A stretch of 38,064 nucleotides of DNA. Source: Desulfobacca sp. Its GTDB lineage: Bacteria; Desulfobacterota; Desulfobaccia; Desulfobaccales; Desulfobaccaceae. Made by a program: the position numbers and the translations under genes. How positions within the stretch are numbered: position 1 is the first letter of the stretch; each line of letters begins with the position of its first letter. Shown here one piece after another: positions 19,276 to 32,056 of the stretch. The DNA lies in contig JAQVHY010000014.1 of the NCBI GenBank assembly GCA_028695935.1, forward strand, positions 1-38,064, in the 5' to 3' direction. A model generated the notes under the pieces. It searched no databases. It saw nothing but the letters and a program-made list of their open reading frames with translations, and was not told the DNA's origin.

Positions 19276-20118
19276 TTAAGCTCCCGGGGACTTCGACCCC
19301 CGCCGTTCAAAGCGCCGCGGAATCGGCAGATATTCCACCGTGGGTTGGTGGCGCACCGGCTGGGGGTAGAGTCCCATAAGTTGTAGGATTTCCTTAGGCA
19401 TCTCGCTTCTGACGGGCAAACCCATGTCCTGGGCGGCCTTAAAGGTGATCGGATGATCGTGCGTCCATCTGCCCTCGGTAAGTAAATTGGCCAGTTCCTC
19501 GGCCTTATCAGCCTCAAACTTGTCGGCCAGCAATTCCCGGACACTGCTATGCACCTGCGCCATCGCCTTTTCCGCCTGATCGGCCAGGATCAGGGTCTGG
19601 TCGTCCACTTCCGCCACCGGCTTACGGGCGACCGCCTTCAACAAAGAGGCGGCCGGATATTGACCCAATTGCGGATCGACCGGTCCCAGCATGGCATGCT
19701 CGCACATGACAATCTCATCCGCGGCCAGGGCGATCAGCGTGCCTCCGGACATGGCGTAATGCGGCACAAAAACCGTAACCTTGCCGGGATGTTGGTGGAT
19801 GGCCCGGGCGATCTGCAAGGAGGCCAATACCAGGCCGCCCGGCGTATGCAGCACCAAATCCAGGGGGACTTCCGGGTCGGTCAGATGGATGGCCCGGATT
19901 ACTTCCTCAGAATCATTTACATCAATATAACGCATGATCGGAAAACCCAAGATGCTCATGGTCTCCATGCGATGGATCATCATGATCACCCGGGATTGAC
20001 GGGCCTTTTCTAACCGGGCCAGCAAACGTTGACGCGACATAACCAGGAACTTCTGGCGGATAATCGGTTGCAGGGCCATAATGATCAAAAATATCCAGAA
20101 GATATCGGTAGTTCCCAT
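19276..20118 (-). CDS. SDH-family ClpP-fold serine protease, membrane anchored
   Basis: The 280-residue protein belongs to the ClpP-fold SDH (serine dehydrogenase proteinase-type) family. The N-terminus is a transmembrane helix (about 5-20). The crotonase/ClpP fold follows: LDLVLHTPGGLVLASLQIARAI (91-95 HTPGG, oxyanion region), the nucleophile Ser124 in HYAMSGGTLIALAADEI, and MLGPVDPQLGQYP near 143, which supplies the acidic dyad or triad partner. Family members are cytoplasm-facing membrane proteases of poorly defined function. It is followed without a gap by the 110-residue gene and preceded 2 bp upstream by a small membrane-protein gene; the three form a minus-strand operon. Confidence 0.87.
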   Translation of the reverse strand: MGTTDIFWIFLIIMALQPIIRQKFLVMSRQRLLARLEKARQSRVIMMIHRMETMSILGFPIMRYIDVNDSEEVIRAIHLTDPEVPLDLVLHTPGGLVLASLQIARAIHQHPGKVTVFVPHYAMSGGTLIALAADEIVMCEHAMLGPVDPQLGQYPAASLLKAVARKPVAEVDDQTLILADQAEKAMAQVHSSVRELLADKFEADKAEELANLLTEGRWTHDHPITFKAAQDMGLPVRSEMPKEILQLMGLYPQPVRHQPTVEYLPIPRRFERRGSKSPGA

Positions 20119-26316: not shown

Positions 26317-27135
26317 ATGACGGAGATCGAGTCTAAGAAAGCTAGCCAACCAACGGCACGGGAACGGCCCCAAGCCCTGGTGATCGAAATCCTTCCCGGG
26401 CAGGCGGCCGAAGGCCTAATCGAGATCTTCGAGCCCGGCAGTTACGAAGGTAAATCCCTGCGAAAGTTGTGTGAGGAGACCTTAAGTAAAACCGATTGGA
26501 GTATTGAAGAACAACAAATCGTCGAAGACATTAAGAGACAGCTTACGGGTGGCAAGTTACTCTGTAGAGGTAAAGAAGTAGATAACCAGGCTCGCGCTTA
26601 TGCCGAATCAGAAACCACTGAAGAAGGAGAACAATACCTCTACGTTCCGGTTCGGGCCATTAAACCTCAAGAAGGCGGTCGGCCGGTACCCAATGCCGGT
26701 GGTCACATCCGCAAGGCCACGGAAAGCGATCTGGATAGAATCATCGAAATTGACCGGCTGTCCTTCTTGGACTATTGGGAATATCATAATTTCAAACAGG
26801 CTCTAGACTGTATATTTTATGTATATGAGAATACCGAAATAATCGGCTACCTGATCGGCTGTATCTGTGAACTGGGGAATAGAGCAGTAGTCCTGAGAAT
26901 TGCCGTACATCCGGAGCACCGTGGAAAAGGTATCGCCACCGCGTTAATGGAAACCTCTATTGCTAACTTTAAACAGAGAAAAGTTAAAACTGTAGAGTTA
27001 GATGTTGAACTGGTTAAAATCGGGGCGGTAAAACTATATGAGCGCATGGGCTTTAGAATCATGAAAGTGCTTTCCCTTGACCAGGAAGGTAACAATAGCT
27101 TTTACATGATGAGATTAAACTTAAACCAAGATTAA
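26317..27135 (+). CDS. GNAT acetyltransferase with N-terminal candidate ubiquitin-like domain
   Basis: Residues 130-272 are a RimI-like GNAT domain: HIRKATESDLDRIIEIDRLSF, the acetyl-CoA loop IAVHPEHRGKGIATALM and AVKLYERMGFR. The first 121 residues are not part of GNAT. They read as strand ALVIEIL (20-26), strand GLIEIFEP (33-40), helix KSLRKLCEETL (46-56), strand GKLLCRGKEV (79-88) and strand QYLYVPVRA (106-114), then PQEGG at 117-121. This is the order and ending of a beta-grasp ubiquitin-like fold, and GKLLCRGKEV resembles the RLIFAGKQL stretch of ubiquitin. It is an inference without structure. The ATG at 26317 has ggag upstream. It is the first gene of the E2/ClpX/JAB/E1 run. Confidence 0.75.
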   Translation: MTEIESKKASQPTARERPQALVIEILPGQAAEGLIEIFEPGSYEGKSLRKLCEETLSKTDWSIEEQQIVEDIKRQLTGGKLLCRGKEVDNQARAYAESETTEEGEQYLYVPVRAIKPQEGGRPVPNAGGHIRKATESDLDRIIEIDRLSFLDYWEYHNFKQALDCIFYVYENTEIIGYLIGCICELGNRAVVLRIAVHPEHRGKGIATALMETSIANFKQRKVKTVELDVELVKIGAVKLYERMGFRIMKVLSLDQEGNNSFYMMRLNLNQD

Positions 27136-27173
27136 GCTAGTCAGATGGTCGGCGGGGCACGGAGCCGTGCATA

Positions 27174-28325
27174 ATGCAACAGTTGTTAGAATCTGCTCAG
27201 GAGATAGTTAGCGCAGGAGGTTTCATTTATCTCCCCCTGTTGTTAGATCCGGATATTGCCGGCGAGATCCAAGACCTGCCGGGCAAGCTCCGGCCGCAAA
27301 CAGATAATACCGTGATCACCATCGCCGGGCAAGCTTTTGTCAAAACCTTGAGTTTGGCTTCCCTCATTGAAAACTACGAGAAAATCCACCCGGCCCCTTA
27401 TGAGCATCTCCGGAAGACCTGTTTACAGCGATATGGCTGTGATCCGGAGGGTAATGGCACCCTGACTGACAGCCAGATCAGCACCATCGTGTTCGAGGTT
27501 TTGCCCCATTTTTTGCGGCGTAAAAGCGGCTTGGCGAGATCCGGGTTTACCGAGCCGGAAATATTGCACCTGGTCGCGGAAAACATCCAAATCTCTGAGT
27601 CTGACCTAAAACAGGCCGACCAGCTTTTAGAGCTTGAGTCGCGGCAAGCCCTCCTAGCCAGGCTGGACGCCGCGCTAACTACCCGACCCACGCCTCCTGA
27701 AGGGCGGATGAGCGCGCCCCGGCTTAAACATTGGTTCCGTCAGGCGTTAGCATGGAAAATAATTAAGCAGGAGAAAAATCGTCTCCAAGACTTACTGGCC
27801 GAACGGCAACAACTGGCCCAGCGGGGCCATTATCTGCCCCTCTTGCTGGCCCTGGCCCGGCAAGGCCGGTTGGAAGTCGAAGGCTTCGGGTTTTTTAGAA
27901 CCGGCATTGGCAATGAGTACATTATCTATAAACACACCGGAGAATACGCCCTGAAAGATTATTATGGTCGGATTTATCTGTTCCCTGATTGTCGGGTGGC
28001 AGTTTCTACCCTGAGCGGTTTACAACCTATGGTGTTAGACCAATACAAACATCCTTTTTTGTTTGGCTATGCCGCCCGGCAAAAAATCTGCACCGGAGAT
28101 TATGAGGCCACCAAGCAGTTCAATGCCAAAAACGTTATTCTGGCCTTGGAGGAAGGTATCAACGCCCTGTTTTACGGTTACAACAGCCGACGCCGCAACG
28201 GCTATCATAGTCTGGATCGCATCACCCAGCATGTTCGCACCGTTGATTTTGACGAATACCGTATTTCCACCGATCATCCCAAAATTATCTCCGGGCAGGT
28301 CGAGGTCAAAAACCAGTATCACTGA
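27174..28325 (+). CDS. Protein with C-terminal E2 (UBC)-like domain
   Basis: The 383-residue protein has a mainly helical N-terminal part (1-225) that I do not recognise. Residues about 235-345 follow the E2 ubiquitin-conjugating core: strands EYIIYKHTGEYALKDYYGRIYLF and CRVAVSTL, then KHPFLFGYA, ARQKICTGDY and a following helix NVILALEEGINALF. The HPx...ICxG pattern is what prokaryotic E2-like families keep around the catalytic cysteine, here Cys306. The usual Asn of the HPN triad is Phe, as in many bacterial E2-like proteins. It begins 38 bp after the GNAT gene (ggag upstream of the ATG) and sits in the same run as an E1 and a JAB protease, which strongly supports the reading. Confidence 0.72.
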   Translation: MQQLLESAQEIVSAGGFIYLPLLLDPDIAGEIQDLPGKLRPQTDNTVITIAGQAFVKTLSLASLIENYEKIHPAPYEHLRKTCLQRYGCDPEGNGTLTDSQISTIVFEVLPHFLRRKSGLARSGFTEPEILHLVAENIQISESDLKQADQLLELESRQALLARLDAALTTRPTPPEGRMSAPRLKHWFRQALAWKIIKQEKNRLQDLLAERQQLAQRGHYLPLLLALARQGRLEVEGFGFFRTGIGNEYIIYKHTGEYALKDYYGRIYLFPDCRVAVSTLSGLQPMVLDQYKHPFLFGYAARQKICTGDYEATKQFNAKNVILALEEGINALFYGYNSRRRNGYHSLDRITQHVRTVDFDEYRISTDHPKIISGQVEVKNQYH

Positions 28326-28326
28326 T

Positions 28327-28785
28327 ATGGCTCTGATCCAGCAATTAAGAGGGCAAAGGGCGCGACGGAAAAGCAAAACGCCATTTCGGATCACCCTCTT
28401 CACCAGGATCTGCTTTCTGGTTCAGACGTATGCTCTGGGCGCCAGTTTTATTGACCAGCTTGATAAGCCGCCGACTCAACTGACGGAAGAAATCTGGGGG
28501 CGCGATCCGGTTCCCGCTAAGGCCCCTTGGCAACCACCGCTGTTTGCCCTGGCCACTCCCGGCGAATACCAGGTAGCCATGGCGATTATCAGCAGGATCA
28601 ATAATCCTTATTTGCATTTTGTCCAGTCTCCGGCGGAGATCTTGCTGTGTCAATCACTGTTTGAATTAAACCCGGATATCAGCCCCGAGGTGCTGGCCAC
28701 TTACCATTTTGCCGCCCTCTGGCAGCGCCAGCTCGCCCGGCCGCAGAACCCCTCGGGCACGATAGGAAAGGCAGGAGGTATTTAA
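28327..28785 (+). CDS. Unknown 152-residue protein of the ubiquitin-like operon, ends Gly-Gly-Ile
   Basis: No family is recognised. The N-terminus is very basic (RGQRARRKSK). The body contains hydrophobic helices (ITLFTRICFLVQTYALGASFIDQL; EILLCQSLFELN) and a Pro/Trp-rich stretch (WGRDPVPAKAPWQPP). The last residues are GKAGGI. The ATG at 28327 begins one base after the stop of the E2-like gene, so translation should be coupled. The same frame is open further upstream, but there it overlaps that gene. It could be an adaptor or a substrate of the system. The Gly-Gly codons coincide with an aggaggt string, so the di-glycine may be fortuitous. Confidence 0.65.
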   Translation: MALIQQLRGQRARRKSKTPFRITLFTRICFLVQTYALGASFIDQLDKPPTQLTEEIWGRDPVPAKAPWQPPLFALATPGEYQVAMAIISRINNPYLHFVQSPAEILLCQSLFELNPDISPEVLATYHFAALWQRQLARPQNPSGTIGKAGGI

Positions 28786-28828
28786 AACGATAACCTAACC
28801 AAAAGGTTAAAAATAACTATGGTGAACC

Positions 28829-29932
28829 ATGTTTGATAGATTATCCGAGGAAAGTCGGCGCCGCATCCAAGAAAAAATTGAACAACAACGGGAAGCCCAA
28901 GCGGCGGAGGCCATAGCGCGGATCGTTGAATTTGACCAGACCCCGGCTGATCTCAAGGCCTATTTAGACCGATTTGTGATCGGCCAGGAAAATGGCAAAA
29001 AGATTATCGCCACCGCCATCGCCTTCCACTATAAACGCTTAGGTAATGCCCTGAAACAGACCTTGGTGGACGAGGGCGGCGATGTCAGCGCGGCCCTGCG
29101 CCATACCCGCACTCCCAAAGCCAACCTGTTAATGATCGGGCCTACCGGCTGCGGTAAAACTTACACCTGTGAAACGGCCTCGGGCTTGGTCGGGGTGCCT
29201 TTTGTGGTCGAAGACCTGACCAAATTCAGCGAAACCGGCTACGTGGGCCAGAATACCAGTGATATTCTGGTAGATCTATTGGTCTCGGCGGGCGGCAACT
29301 CCCATTTAGCGCAGATGGGCATCGTCTATCTCGATGAAATCGACAAGATCGCCACCGAGAACGTCGCTTACCGGGATGTGTCAGGCCGGGGGGTGCAGAA
29401 AGGGCTGTTAAAGCTGGTCGAAGGAGTCGAAAATACCATTGAAATGGGCAAGGAAAGGATTGCTTTGTCCACCAAGCACGTGCTCTTTATCGCTGGCGGG
29501 GTGTTCGATAAGCTTGACAGTATTGTCGAAAAACGCATGGAGCGCCACGGGTTTTCCGGGACCTGGCAAGACCACCTCCTGACCGAGGACCTGGTGGTCT
29601 TTGGCATGGAACGGCAACTGATGGGCCGGTTTCCGGTCCGGGTGGTCTATGAATTATTAACCACGCAAGAACTACAGGACATCCTGGTCAGAAGTGAGGA
29701 CAGCCCGCTCAGGGCCTATATCAACGACCTGAAGGCCTGGGATATCGACCTGACCTTTGCCGATGAGGCGCTCAAGGCCATCGCCCAACGGGCCAAACAA
29801 GAGCGCACCGGGGCCCGCGGCCTGATCAGTATTATCCATCGGGTGCTATTTGAGGACATGTTCCGGCTGCCCGGCAGCCATACCGGCCCGCTGGCGGTCG
29901 ATGAACGATATGTGCGGATGCGACTGAATTGA
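28829..29932 (+). CDS. ClpX-like AAA+ unfoldase lacking zinc domain and ClpP-docking loop
   Basis: This 367-residue AAA+ protein aligns with the ClpX core: Walker A GPTGCGKT (104-111), pore-1 loop GYVG (137-140), Walker B IVYLDEIDK (165-173), RDVSGRGVQKGLLKLVEG (182-199), FIAGGVFDKL, LVVFGMERQLMGRFPV (256-270, with the arginine-finger region) and sensor-2 ERTGARGL (325-332). Two parts of true ClpX are missing: the N-terminal Cys4 zinc-binding domain, replaced by a charged helix (1-35), and the IGF loop that docks on ClpP (here the segment reads RHGFSGTW). It is thus a divergent unfoldase that probably works with another partner, plausibly the JAB protease, whose TTG start overlaps its stop codon (TTGA). 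Confidence 0.9.
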   Translation: MFDRLSEESRRRIQEKIEQQREAQAAEAIARIVEFDQTPADLKAYLDRFVIGQENGKKIIATAIAFHYKRLGNALKQTLVDEGGDVSAALRHTRTPKANLLMIGPTGCGKTYTCETASGLVGVPFVVEDLTKFSETGYVGQNTSDILVDLLVSAGGNSHLAQMGIVYLDEIDKIATENVAYRDVSGRGVQKGLLKLVEGVENTIEMGKERIALSTKHVLFIAGGVFDKLDSIVEKRMERHGFSGTWQDHLLTEDLVVFGMERQLMGRFPVRVVYELLTTQELQDILVRSEDSPLRAYINDLKAWDIDLTFADEALKAIAQRAKQERTGARGLISIIHRVLFEDMFRLPGSHTGPLAVDERYVRMRLN

Positions 29933-30726
29933 GATTTAAGAGCCTGTCACAACTGAAGCGTCCGGCCGCGATCGAAGTGGTCCTGGATTCCTTGCCCCAA
30001 GCGATTCGGATGACCGCCTACGCCCGGGCCAAGGCCTTTAAAATCAATGAATTGGTGCGGTCCATCTATGAGCTGAGCTATGAATGGTATGGCTATACCC
30101 TGGCCCGGCGAGATGATCCGGACCTCATCAGGGATATCGGCTTGCCGAAAAATGAGCAAAATGTCCTGGAATATACCAGTATTGACCCGGAGAAGATTGC
30201 CAGCTACCAGGAGTCGTTAGCCCCCGACTGCTTCATCAATGGTTGGATTCATTCGCATGGCGACCTGGATTTTCATGTCTTCTCGGCCACCGATGAGCAG
30301 AATCACCTCACCGTGCTCGATTATGTCACCGCCCTCTATAAAAAACCCATCGCCAAGAAGGAAATCGTCATCAAAGACTTAAACCTGTTGGTGGCCGGGC
30401 AATTCACCGACCAGGACCTAAAAACCGGCAGCGCCTGTCTGATTACCGATGTGCCGGTCAGCCAGGCCCGGATCCTGGAAACCATCTATGGCGGCTTCTG
30501 CTACGGCATCGTTATCGGCGACCAGGGCTGGCACCAGCAGGAAATCTATTATAAGCAGCGGGCCATCCTCTCAGGCCAGACCACTATCAGCCATAACCCC
30601 GCTGACATCGTCCTGGTGGACACCGGCCAGTCCCTGGCGGCCGCGGAACTCGCGGCGTTGGCCGCCGAAGTTAAAGACAAGATCAATCCGATTACCTATA
30701 AGCTCGAAAAGCTTGAAATTTTGTAA
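29929..30726 (+). CDS. JAB/JAMM (MPN+) metalloprotease
   Basis: The 265-residue protein contains a JAB1/MPN metalloprotease core. The JAMM residues are visible: candidate Glu52 (YEWYGYTLAR), His108 and His110 in GWIHSHG, Ser119 and Asp122 in FSATDEQN. The spacing is HxH-x8-S-x2-D, one residue longer than the canonical x7. JAB enzymes of this kind cleave isopeptide or C-terminal bonds of ubiquitin-like proteins. It starts with TTG overlapping the ClpX-like stop codon (4 bp) and ends 5 bp before the E1 gene. It should remove or process the ubiquitin-like modifier, or act as the peptidase of the ClpX-like ring. Confidence 0.88.
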   Translation: MRFKSLSQLKRPAAIEVVLDSLPQAIRMTAYARAKAFKINELVRSIYELSYEWYGYTLARRDDPDLIRDIGLPKNEQNVLEYTSIDPEKIASYQESLAPDCFINGWIHSHGDLDFHVFSATDEQNHLTVLDYVTALYKKPIAKKEIVIKDLNLLVAGQFTDQDLKTGSACLITDVPVSQARILETIYGGFCYGIVIGDQGWHQQEIYYKQRAILSGQTTISHNPADIVLVDTGQSLAAAELAALAAEVKDKINPITYKLEKLEIL

Positions 30727-30731
30727 TCATC

Positions 30732-31973
30732 TTGGCCACCGCAAGACTTGATCGACAACTACGCATCCCCGGTTGGAATCAGCAGAGTTTAGCCCACGCC
30801 CGGATCGGCATCGTCGGCGATGCGGACCGCCTGGCCTCATTGTACATCGTGTCGGCCGCGGCTTTGGGCCTGAACCAGTTGGTGGTCATCGCCCCCCGTC
30901 TGGATCCGGCCCTGATCGACACCGCCCACCAGGTTAATCCCGACCTTCACCTGGTGCATGTGGAAGGATTTTTCACCCACCCGGTACTGGAGGACGTCTT
31001 TACCGGCTGCCAGGTGCTGGTGGATCTCAGCCAGTATGGCCTGGCCAATAAATTATTGCTGGCGCAAGGCAGCCGCGCCCACCTGCCGGTGCTACGCGGG
31101 TTCGTTCACGTACTAGCTGATCAGCAAGGCTTCAAAATCTTTACCTATTTGCGAGGTCGCGAATGGCAGGAACTGGAGCAGTTGGTGTCCCCGCACAACC
31201 TACCCGGCCAGCCCTTGGATGACGGCGTCCTGGACATCATCGTGGCCGGGATCGTCCTGGAAGAAACTAAAAATCTCCTCATGGGGCAGCCGGTATCGAC
31301 CGAGGTGATCGCCTATCAGCGGCCGTTCCTGCCACCGCTGCTAAACCATCCGCGCATCTGTGTCGTGGGAGCCGGGGCCTTGGGCAATTTTATCGGACTG
31401 GGGCTGGCCTTTGCCGGCGCGACAGATATTACCTTCGTGGATTTTGATGTCGTGGAGCTGACCAACCTCAACCGGCAGGTATTTCTGGTGGACGCCCTAG
31501 GGCACAACAAAGCCGAGGCCTTGTCAGCCCGGCTGAACCAACTGTTCGCCCTGCGCAGCCGGGCCTGGCCTGTAGCCTGCGACCGCGATACCGATTTCTC
31601 ACCCTACCACATAATTTTTGATGGCGTCGATAATTTCGAAACCCGAATTATTTTAAGCGAAAAATGTCAAGCCCAGCAGAAAATCCTGATCAGCGGCGGC
31701 AGCGATGTCGCGGCCGGGCAGGTGGTGGTCTATGATCCGGCCCAACCGGGGCCTACCCCGGCCGAATTACTGGGACTGGCGGGGATTGTCGGTCGGCGGC
31801 GGACTAAGCCAAACCTGCACCCCCGGGCCTCTTGCCAATACCGGCCCGATCCCGCGGTCATCATGACCAACCAGATCATTGCCGGGTTTATGGTGGAGGC
31901 TTACCGCCGGTTGCTTAATGGTGACCAGCCCGCCAACATTTTCTATGAATCAAGCAGGGAGAAGAAATTCTAA
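30732..31973 (+). CDS. E1-like (ThiF/MoeB/UBA) activating enzyme with two Rossmann-like halves
   Basis: The 413-residue protein has two halves. Residues about 5-190 form a degenerate Rossmann-like half (RIGIVGDADRLAS, LNQLVVIAPRLDP; no intact nucleotide or metal motifs). Residues 205-400 form an active adenylation domain: VVGAGALGNFIG (211-222), VDFDVVELTNLNRQVFL (236-252, ribose- and ATP-binding Asp and Arg) and DGVDNFETR (297-305). A cysteine at 368 (RASCQY) is a candidate catalytic or structural residue. This inactive-plus-active layout echoes eukaryotic E1 heterodimers in one chain. It should adenylate the C-terminus of a ubiquitin-like protein. TTG start; last gene of the operon, followed by a hairpin pair. 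Confidence 0.9.
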   Translation: MATARLDRQLRIPGWNQQSLAHARIGIVGDADRLASLYIVSAAALGLNQLVVIAPRLDPALIDTAHQVNPDLHLVHVEGFFTHPVLEDVFTGCQVLVDLSQYGLANKLLLAQGSRAHLPVLRGFVHVLADQQGFKIFTYLRGREWQELEQLVSPHNLPGQPLDDGVLDIIVAGIVLEETKNLLMGQPVSTEVIAYQRPFLPPLLNHPRICVVGAGALGNFIGLGLAFAGATDITFVDFDVVELTNLNRQVFLVDALGHNKAEALSARLNQLFALRSRAWPVACDRDTDFSPYHIIFDGVDNFETRIILSEKCQAQQKILISGGSDVAAGQVVVYDPAQPGPTPAELLGLAGIVGRRRTKPNLHPRASCQYRPDPAVIMTNQIIAGFMVEAYRRLLNGDQPANIFYESSREKKF

Positions 31974-31995: not shown

Positions 31996-32056
31996 CGTGC
32001 CCAAGTACAACTTGGGCACGAGGGTAACCTCTCGTTCCCTTGTACTTGGGAACGAG
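31996..32056. terminator. Tandem hairpins between convergent genes
   Basis: cgtgcccaagt-aca-acttgggcacg (31996-32020) is a perfect 11-bp stem. ctcgttccc/gggaacgag (32031-32056) is a second 9-bp stem. They lie between the convergent E1 and histidine-kinase genes. No T run follows, so they may be REP-type palindromes that act as a transcription barrier. Confidence 0.5.

Follow-up and report, generated by a model that had tools for sequence, protein, structure and literature searches.

A predicted ubiquitin-like conjugation operon with its own ClpX-type unfoldase in Desulfobacterota

The window analysed here, 38,064 nucleotides (nt) of Desulfobacca sp. (assembly GCA_028695935.1, contig JAQVHY010000014.1), contains a compact operon of six genes at positions 26317-31973. 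Judged from its sequence, this operon probably encodes a reversible ubiquitin-like protein-conjugation system that has its own AAA+ motor. The genes, all on the + strand, are numbered 1 to 6 by their order within the window and encode a fusion of a ubiquitin-like protein (UBL) with a GNAT acetyltransferase (gene 1), an E2-like protein (gene 2), a small protein (gene 3), a ClpX-like AAA+ unfoldase (gene 4), a JAMM/JAB metalloprotease (gene 5), and an E1 enzyme (gene 6). An earlier note on this DNA had listed six co-directional open reading frames separated by 38, 1, 43, -4, and 5 nt, and the coordinates of the reading frames bear this out. Most of what is known of ubiquitin-like conjugation in prokaryotes comes from defence operons and plasmids. 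In this operon, all the conjugation parts and an AAA+ motor stand together on bacterial chromosomes, without any sign of defence.

Conservation of the operon

Of 40 relatives, 17 carry gene 2; in an even sample of 395 genomes from across the phylum, 20 do, and these belong to seven families. When about 85,000 prokaryote genomes were scanned, at least 46 loci emerged, a lower bound because the scan uses exact peptide patterns. The loci belong nearly all to Desulfobacterota (Desulfobacca, Desulfobacterales, Syntrophobacterales, and Desulfarculales), plus one Methylomirabilota contig. All six genes are present in a named isolate, Desulfoferrobacter suflitae DRH4 (L061), and also in a one-contig genome of 3.28 Mb (G004).

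In profile searches, 22 loci had the genes arranged as 1-2-3-4-5-6 and nine as 6-1-2-3-4-5, and most loci outside both orders are interrupted by contig ends. Gene 2 is followed by gene 3 in 43 of the 46 loci, gene 3 adjoining gene 2 everywhere but in one genome with a split operon, and genes 4 and 5 overlap by 1 or 4 nt in 32/35 loci. Outside the six, any one gene family is found in at most 8 of the 43 non-redundant loci, and the flanks are unrelated. All six genes are under purifying selection, with ratios of nonsynonymous to synonymous substitution rates (dN/dS) of 0.07-0.22. Since the same order is kept across several orders, between unrelated flanks and under purifying selection, the six genes form a conserved system, beyond what chance would bring together. 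The synteny of the JAB, ClpX-like, and E1 genes, which the earlier note had proposed to look for, is found in dozens of genomes, and this trio strictly co-occurs.

The strongest evidence that we are dealing with one system is that the genes are present or absent together, as seen by comparing split operons with members of the same order that lack gene 2. Seven genomes, selected as carriers of gene 2, have the genes dispersed. Whole-genome searches, which covered genes 1, 2, 4, 5, and 6, showed that the UBL, the ClpX-like gene, the JAB, and the E1 are all retained in the seven. The ClpX-like and JAB genes are adjacent in every one of them, and gene 3 adjoins gene 2 in six. Conversely, the JAB is missing from 12/12 order-mates without gene 2, and gene 4 from the nine that were checked, where the best scores (at most 262 bits, vs more than 610) correspond to ordinary ClpX. 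The coupling of the AAA+ motor to the JAB isopeptidase is thus well founded genetically, because genes 4 and 5 stay adjacent even in broken operons.

One genome with relocated genes retains a C-terminal remnant of the E1 beside the UBL (G407:C1:2119047-2119196), and its intact E1 lies beside genes 2 and 3 (G407:C1:2868320-2869546), a trace of operon rearrangement.

The predicted conjugation proteins

The C-terminal half of gene 1 matches Pfam Acetyltransf_1 (8.6e-19), its model finds Ard1/RimI N-terminal acetyltransferases as best Foldseek matches, and the acetyl-CoA motif RGKGIA can be read in the sequence. The fusion is restricted to the genus of the window (3/3 genomes, with a short linker between the Gly-Gly and the GNAT), while elsewhere gene 1 encodes a free UBL of about 121 residues. 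The GNAT that the earlier note had counted among the parts of the system thus finds no support as a core component; its role may be to acetylate targets, or it may be no more than co-expressed. The UBL and GNAT parts are both under purifying selection (dN/dS 0.10 and 0.16; 0.11 and 0.09).

The motif PQEGG is invariant in the 44 UBL copies of the main survey, and a C-terminal Gly-Gly, which was looked for in the homologous loci, is present in every locus that includes gene 1. What follows PQEGG is variable: the GNAT in one of the 44 copies, from the window's genus, and 0 to about 35 non-conserved residues in the others, five of which stop exactly at the Gly-Gly (the median tail is 7 residues among the tailed copies). 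The UBL copies from split operons have the same PQEGG and variable end. Since a variable tail, or a GNAT, follows the Gly-Gly, the natural inference from these sequences is that gene 1 encodes a precursor from which the JAB frees the mature UBL, much as ubiquitin is synthesised with extensions.

The UBL part has no Pfam or NCBIfam family, a member-by-member Pfam scan of 46 homologues gave noise only, and a profile search of the PDB found nothing significant. The AlphaFold2 model has a predicted local distance difference test score (pLDDT) of about 90 over residues 20-115, with a disordered or flexible Gly-Gly end, and its order of elements, strand-strand-helix-helix-strand-strand-strand, fits that of a beta-grasp. 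The Foldseek lists for gene 1 are filled by GNAT matches and give no reading on the UBL fold.

The E1 encoded by gene 6 matches ThiF (Pfam, 1.5e-29, residues 204-399), and the best PDB matches of this active domain are UBA1, Uba4, and MoeB. All 36 E1 proteins aligned share R5, D7, R8, Q9, the GxGxxG stretch, NLNRQ, K260, D297/D300, and C368. Residues 4-144 align with the ThiF of the same genome (hhalign probability 94%, E 1.1e-7), and a direct comparison of the two halves of gene 6 is weak (3%). Because the N-terminal 140 residues or so align with ThiF and have lost the nucleotide motif, we read gene 6 as a tandem of inactive and active adenylation domains. The only other full-length ThiF-family gene of the genome (L080; G000:C153:7490-8179) is interrupted in frame by a TAG within the nucleotide-binding motif, either an assembly error or the mark of a pseudogene.

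Gene 2 belongs to no Pfam or NCBIfam family, and a Pfam scan of 49 members gave noise only. H293, P294, Q303, I305, and C306 are invariant in the 49 proteins. The spacing between the His and the Cys is 13; in UbcH5b it is 10. The AlphaFold2 model (mean pLDDT 84.7) presents a helix, strands, the HP...C stretch, and a long helix, in this order. In Foldseek, its top match is Ube2g2 and E2s make up 20 of the top 50, with individually non-significant values (best E 0.6); the gene 2 profile found no PDB chain at significance. The model thus weakly suggests a UBC-like fold: for the E2-like core seen in the earlier note, the HP...IC motif is invariant and E2s are prominent among the structural matches, at non-significant E-values. 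A search for Prok-E2_D (PF14460) in 198 genomes gave zero matches, the controls included, and so has no bearing on gene 2. Readthrough had been suspected because profile matches to the homologues of gene 2 ran across stop codons at their 3' ends; it was rejected, as nothing homologous was found past the stops.

Gene 3 has no Pfam or NCBIfam family either, and scanning its 47 members one by one gave noise only; our guess is that it encodes an adaptor or an E3-like factor. The UBL, the E2-like protein, and gene 3 are thus three protein families without a Pfam model.

The UBL could instead be a sulfur carrier of the ThiS/MoaD type serving biosynthesis, the E2-like and ClpX-like proteins acting otherwise. 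The E1 falls in the ThiF/MoeB superfamily, sulfur carriage is a frequent role of Gly-Gly UBLs in bacteria, and JAB and UBL pairs are found in sulfur-transfer operons (Iyer 2006, PMC1779556). However, the set includes gene 2 with its invariant HP...C as well as an unfoldase, the UBL is larger (121 residues) and has no Pfam family, and no gene of a sulfur pathway regularly accompanies the set, because no further gene family recurs widely. This explanation is very improbable.

The ClpX-like motor, the JAB protease and the proposed mechanism

The conjugation system that we favour includes an isopeptidase and a motor. The Prok-JAB match of gene 5 (0.0027) lies under the family cut-off and is found in 15 of 38 members; E52, H108, H110, S119, and D122 are invariant in all 38. 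The JAB profile found no PDB chain at significance. The E1, JAMM, ClpX, and HP...IC motifs that the earlier note had described are all present, and its JAMM spacing needs correction, since 8 residues separate the second His from the Ser in all relatives, vs 7 in the canonical motif.

Gene 4 matches AAA_2 (Pfam, 1.1e-18) and NCBIfam ClpX (8.8e-81, under its cut-off), and shares 35% identity with the ClpX of its own genome. Walker A, Walker B, the GYVG pore loop, and GARGL are essentially invariant. The zinc-binding domain of ClpX is absent from all aligned gene 4 proteins, the IGF-type tripeptide for docking to ClpP is found in none of 31, the docking loop being shortened, and the RKH loop is also shorter than in ClpX. 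The own-genome ClpX, which lies beside ClpP, has both the zinc-binding domain and the IGF tripeptide. A second ClpX-like paralogue, a frame of about 600 amino acids (G015:C90, G016:C76, G019:C74, and others), outscores canonical ClpX on the gene 4 profile and occurs in genomes with and without the operon.

These features bear on the possibility that the motor feeds UBL-tagged proteins to ordinary ClpP while the JAB recycles the tag, which would be a bacterial analogue of the ubiquitin-proteasome system. Clp-protease-family matches exist in all 29 genomes searched, nearly all of them including a full-length ClpP (C92 in the genome of the window), gene 4 retains its pore loop and ATPase motifs, and the ATPase and JAB genes are translationally coupled. 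Yet the tripeptide present in the genome's own ClpX is missing from every gene 4 protein, and no peptidase gene recurs in the operon. We consider this alternative unlikely. Because the ClpP-docking loop is missing, ClpP-fed proteolysis, a form of the regulated proteolysis raised in the earlier note, is not the default reading, although degradation could still take place.

We therefore return to a reversible conjugation system with a dedicated motor, for which motifs, gene co-occurrence, the precursor pattern, and the missing ClpX features are read from the sequence, and every biochemical step is our inference. Cleavage of the gene 1 precursor by the JAB, just behind Gly121, would release the free UBL and, in the window's genus, the GNAT. 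The E1 would adenylate the Gly-Gly end and then transfer the UBL to Cys368. The E2-like protein would accept it on Cys306 and pass it to target lysines, perhaps assisted by gene 3. A hexamer of the ClpX-like protein beside the JAB would pull on UBL-bearing targets by way of its pore as the JAB strips off the UBL, a step modelled on Rpt and Rpn11 of the proteasome. The outcome is likely to be unfolding or extraction of targets, a Cdc48-like remodelling instead of direct feeding to ClpP, because the docking loop is gone.

Of the scheme advanced in the earlier note, UBL tagging coupled to ATP-driven unfolding and JAB cleavage, the Gly-Gly UBL, the synteny, and the co-occurrence of E1, JAB, and ClpX-like genes hold up, and the E2 fold is its weak part. 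Several points count against the system as proposed. Conjugation is predicted here from genes, the UBL fold from strand order and the Gly-Gly, and the ATPase-JAB coupling from gene adjacency. All E2 structure matches of gene 2 are at E 0.6 or worse, and it has no profile similarity to PRTRC B (background score in hhalign). The JAMM loop exceeds the canonical length by one residue, and no E3 was recognised in the operon.

As a broader proposal, which we regard as evenly balanced, the conjugation cascade would be dedicated to the AAA+ unfoldase/JAMM pair, forming a stand-alone counterpart of Cdc48 or of the regulatory particle of the proteasome that would process UBL-tagged proteins where there is no proteasome, inherited in Desulfobacterota as a six-protein unit. 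With this operon, a small reconstituted system could be used to test whether tag-and-unfold arose earlier than the proteasome.

Table 1. Genes and functional sites of the six-gene operon (window positions).
Feature	Position	Strand	Basis
Gene 1: UBL precursor-GNAT acetyltransferase fusion, 272 amino acids (aa)	26317..27135	+	Pfam, alignment
UBL domain, gene 1 residues 1-121, end RAIKPQEGG	26317..26679	+	Alignment, AlphaFold2 model
Gly120-Gly121, predicted conjugation terminus and JAB cleavage point	26674..26679	+	Invariant PQEGG
GNAT domain, RimI/Ard1-like, gene 1 residues ~129-272	26701..27132	+	Pfam Acetyltransf_1, Foldseek, RGKGIA motif
Gene 2: E2-like protein, 383 aa, ~200-aa N-terminal extension	27174..28325	+	AlphaFold2, Foldseek
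E2-like active-site stretch His293-Pro294...Cys306 (candidate catalytic Cys), gene 2	28050..28091	+	Invariant residues
Gene 3: 152-aa protein without recognised family, ATG 28327 to stop 28785	28327..28785	+	Open reading frame, gene 2 adjacency
Gene 4: ClpX-like AAA+ unfoldase, 367 aa, without zinc-binding domain or IGF loop	28829..29932	+	NCBIfam, alignment
Walker A GPTGCGKT, gene 4	29138..29161	+	Alignment
Aromatic pore loop GYVG, gene 4	29237..29248	+	Conserved in alignment
Gene 5: JAMM/JAB metalloprotease, 265 aa, 4-nt overlap with gene 4	29929..30726	+	Prok-JAB, motif
JAMM Glu52 (EWYG), gene 5	30082..30084	+	Invariant
JAMM core H108-S-H110...S119-x-x-D122, gene 5	30250..30294	+	Residues invariant, 38/38
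Gene 6: E1, degenerate N-terminal and active C-terminal adenylation domains, 413 aa	30732..31973	+	ThiF match
Inactive adenylation-like domain, gene 6; RLDRQLRIPGW arm retained, nucleotide motif lost (GDADRLA)	30741..31163	+	hhalign
Active adenylation domain, gene 6: GAGALGN, TNLNRQ, K260, D297xVD300	31341..31928	+	Pfam, alignment, PDB matches
Cys368, candidate E1 catalytic cysteine, gene 6	31833..31835	+	Invariant 36/36; role inferred

Relation to known systems and neighbouring features

The best reading of the operon is that of a variant of the prokaryotic ubiquitin-like operons with a ClpX-type motor. The closest gene list is that of the PRTRC cassette, which we take to be class 6d of Iyer: both have separate UBL, E2-like, JAB, and ThiF-type E1 genes plus an extra protein. 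The E1 profiles are similar (98.8% probability), the similarity of the JAB to PRTRC A is weak, and PRTRC B shows by eye an HxP...C pattern like that of gene 2. However, PRTRC contains a ParB, which does not recur with the six genes in the 43 loci, its E1 is single-domain whereas that of the operon has an extra degenerate adenylation domain, and the operon adds a ClpX-like motor, its genes 2 and 5 finding no match on plasmids. Membership of PRTRC was rejected for the UBL, gene 2, and gene 3, which are not detectably related to PRTRC C, B, and E (hhalign background, five PRTRC plasmid loci). Class 6d operons comprise a UBL, a JAB, E1-like and E2-like proteins, and a helical protein (PMC1779556). 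A tightly ordered Shinella plasmid cluster (L124:4917-9070) encoding a ThiF, a GNAT, and three unnamed proteins proved to be related by ThiF alone in profile comparison.

The Bil operons (BilABCD) also combine E1, E2, JAB, and UBL, and the E1 BilD has an inactive and an active adenylation domain (PMC11354881), as in gene 6. BilA has two UBL domains, in contrast to the single one of 121 residues in gene 1, and the operon adds the motor and gene 3 and shows no sign of a defence context. Bub, a term for bacterial ubiquitination-like operons whose defence role is unproven (PMC13373217), resembles it by its description. In type II CBASS (cyclic oligonucleotide-based antiphage signalling system) with Cap2/Cap3, and in 6A-MBL, the E1 domain is of the same superfamily and has a JAB partner, but Cap2 is a fused E1-E2 and the two are separate here. 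The CD-NTase and effector of type II CBASS were not found with the operon, and no further family recurs widely.

An anti-phage role like that of Bil or type II CBASS, with the UBL conjugated to phage proteins or to a sensor, would fit the shared E1-E2-JAB-UBL logic, the matches of the E1 to CBASS E1-E2 models and Cap2 structures, and the patchy distribution within some families. It is nevertheless doubtful to us, and the earlier note's suggestion of defence finds no support: genes 2 and 5 have neither PADLOC nor plasmid matches, the UBL and gene 2 have no relative in 2.9 million viral contigs, the 43 loci contain no cyclase, effector, or recurring defence neighbour, the neighbours in the window look like ordinary chromosomal genes, and purifying selection is uniform.

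For the conjugation-and-unfolding system, the 26S proteasome, with its Rpt AAA+ ring and the JAMM protein Rpn11, offers an analogy of logic, an AAA+ motor paired with a JAMM isopeptidase; the motor is here of ClpX type instead of Rpt, sharing with ClpX an AAA+ core with the GYVG pore loop, and the operon has no 20S-like peptidase. Gene 1, with its GNAT, likewise resembles the fusions of ubiquitin to ribosomal proteins in being a UBL precursor with a C-terminal extension. A ClpX-type motor does not figure in the operon classes of PMC1779556, nor in Bil, Bub, or CBASS as described, and we found no description of the six-gene combination with an unfolding motor in the literature and family libraries searched; the primary Bil and Bub reports lay outside this comparison and search, and a recent description is possible.

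Among the neighbouring genes, one of about 117 amino acids adjoins gene 6 in L015 (3592-3942) and recurs near the operon in L030, L057, and L066. In 8/43 loci (e.g., L044:8564-9841), the operon has nearby a gene that, judged by eye, may have a metallo-beta-lactamase fold; class 6a operons also adjoin genes of this fold (PMC1779556). In the window, 6 kb upstream of the operon, a serine-protease-like gene (19276-20118) has weak similarity to the Clp-protease family (1.9e-5), and no counterpart of it is widespread in the surroundings of the other operon copies. Just 3' of gene 6, at 31996-32054, there are two adjacent palindromic hairpins, one pair having 15-nt arms that are 93% complementary, which may be repetitive extragenic palindromic (REP)-like elements or the terminator of the operon.

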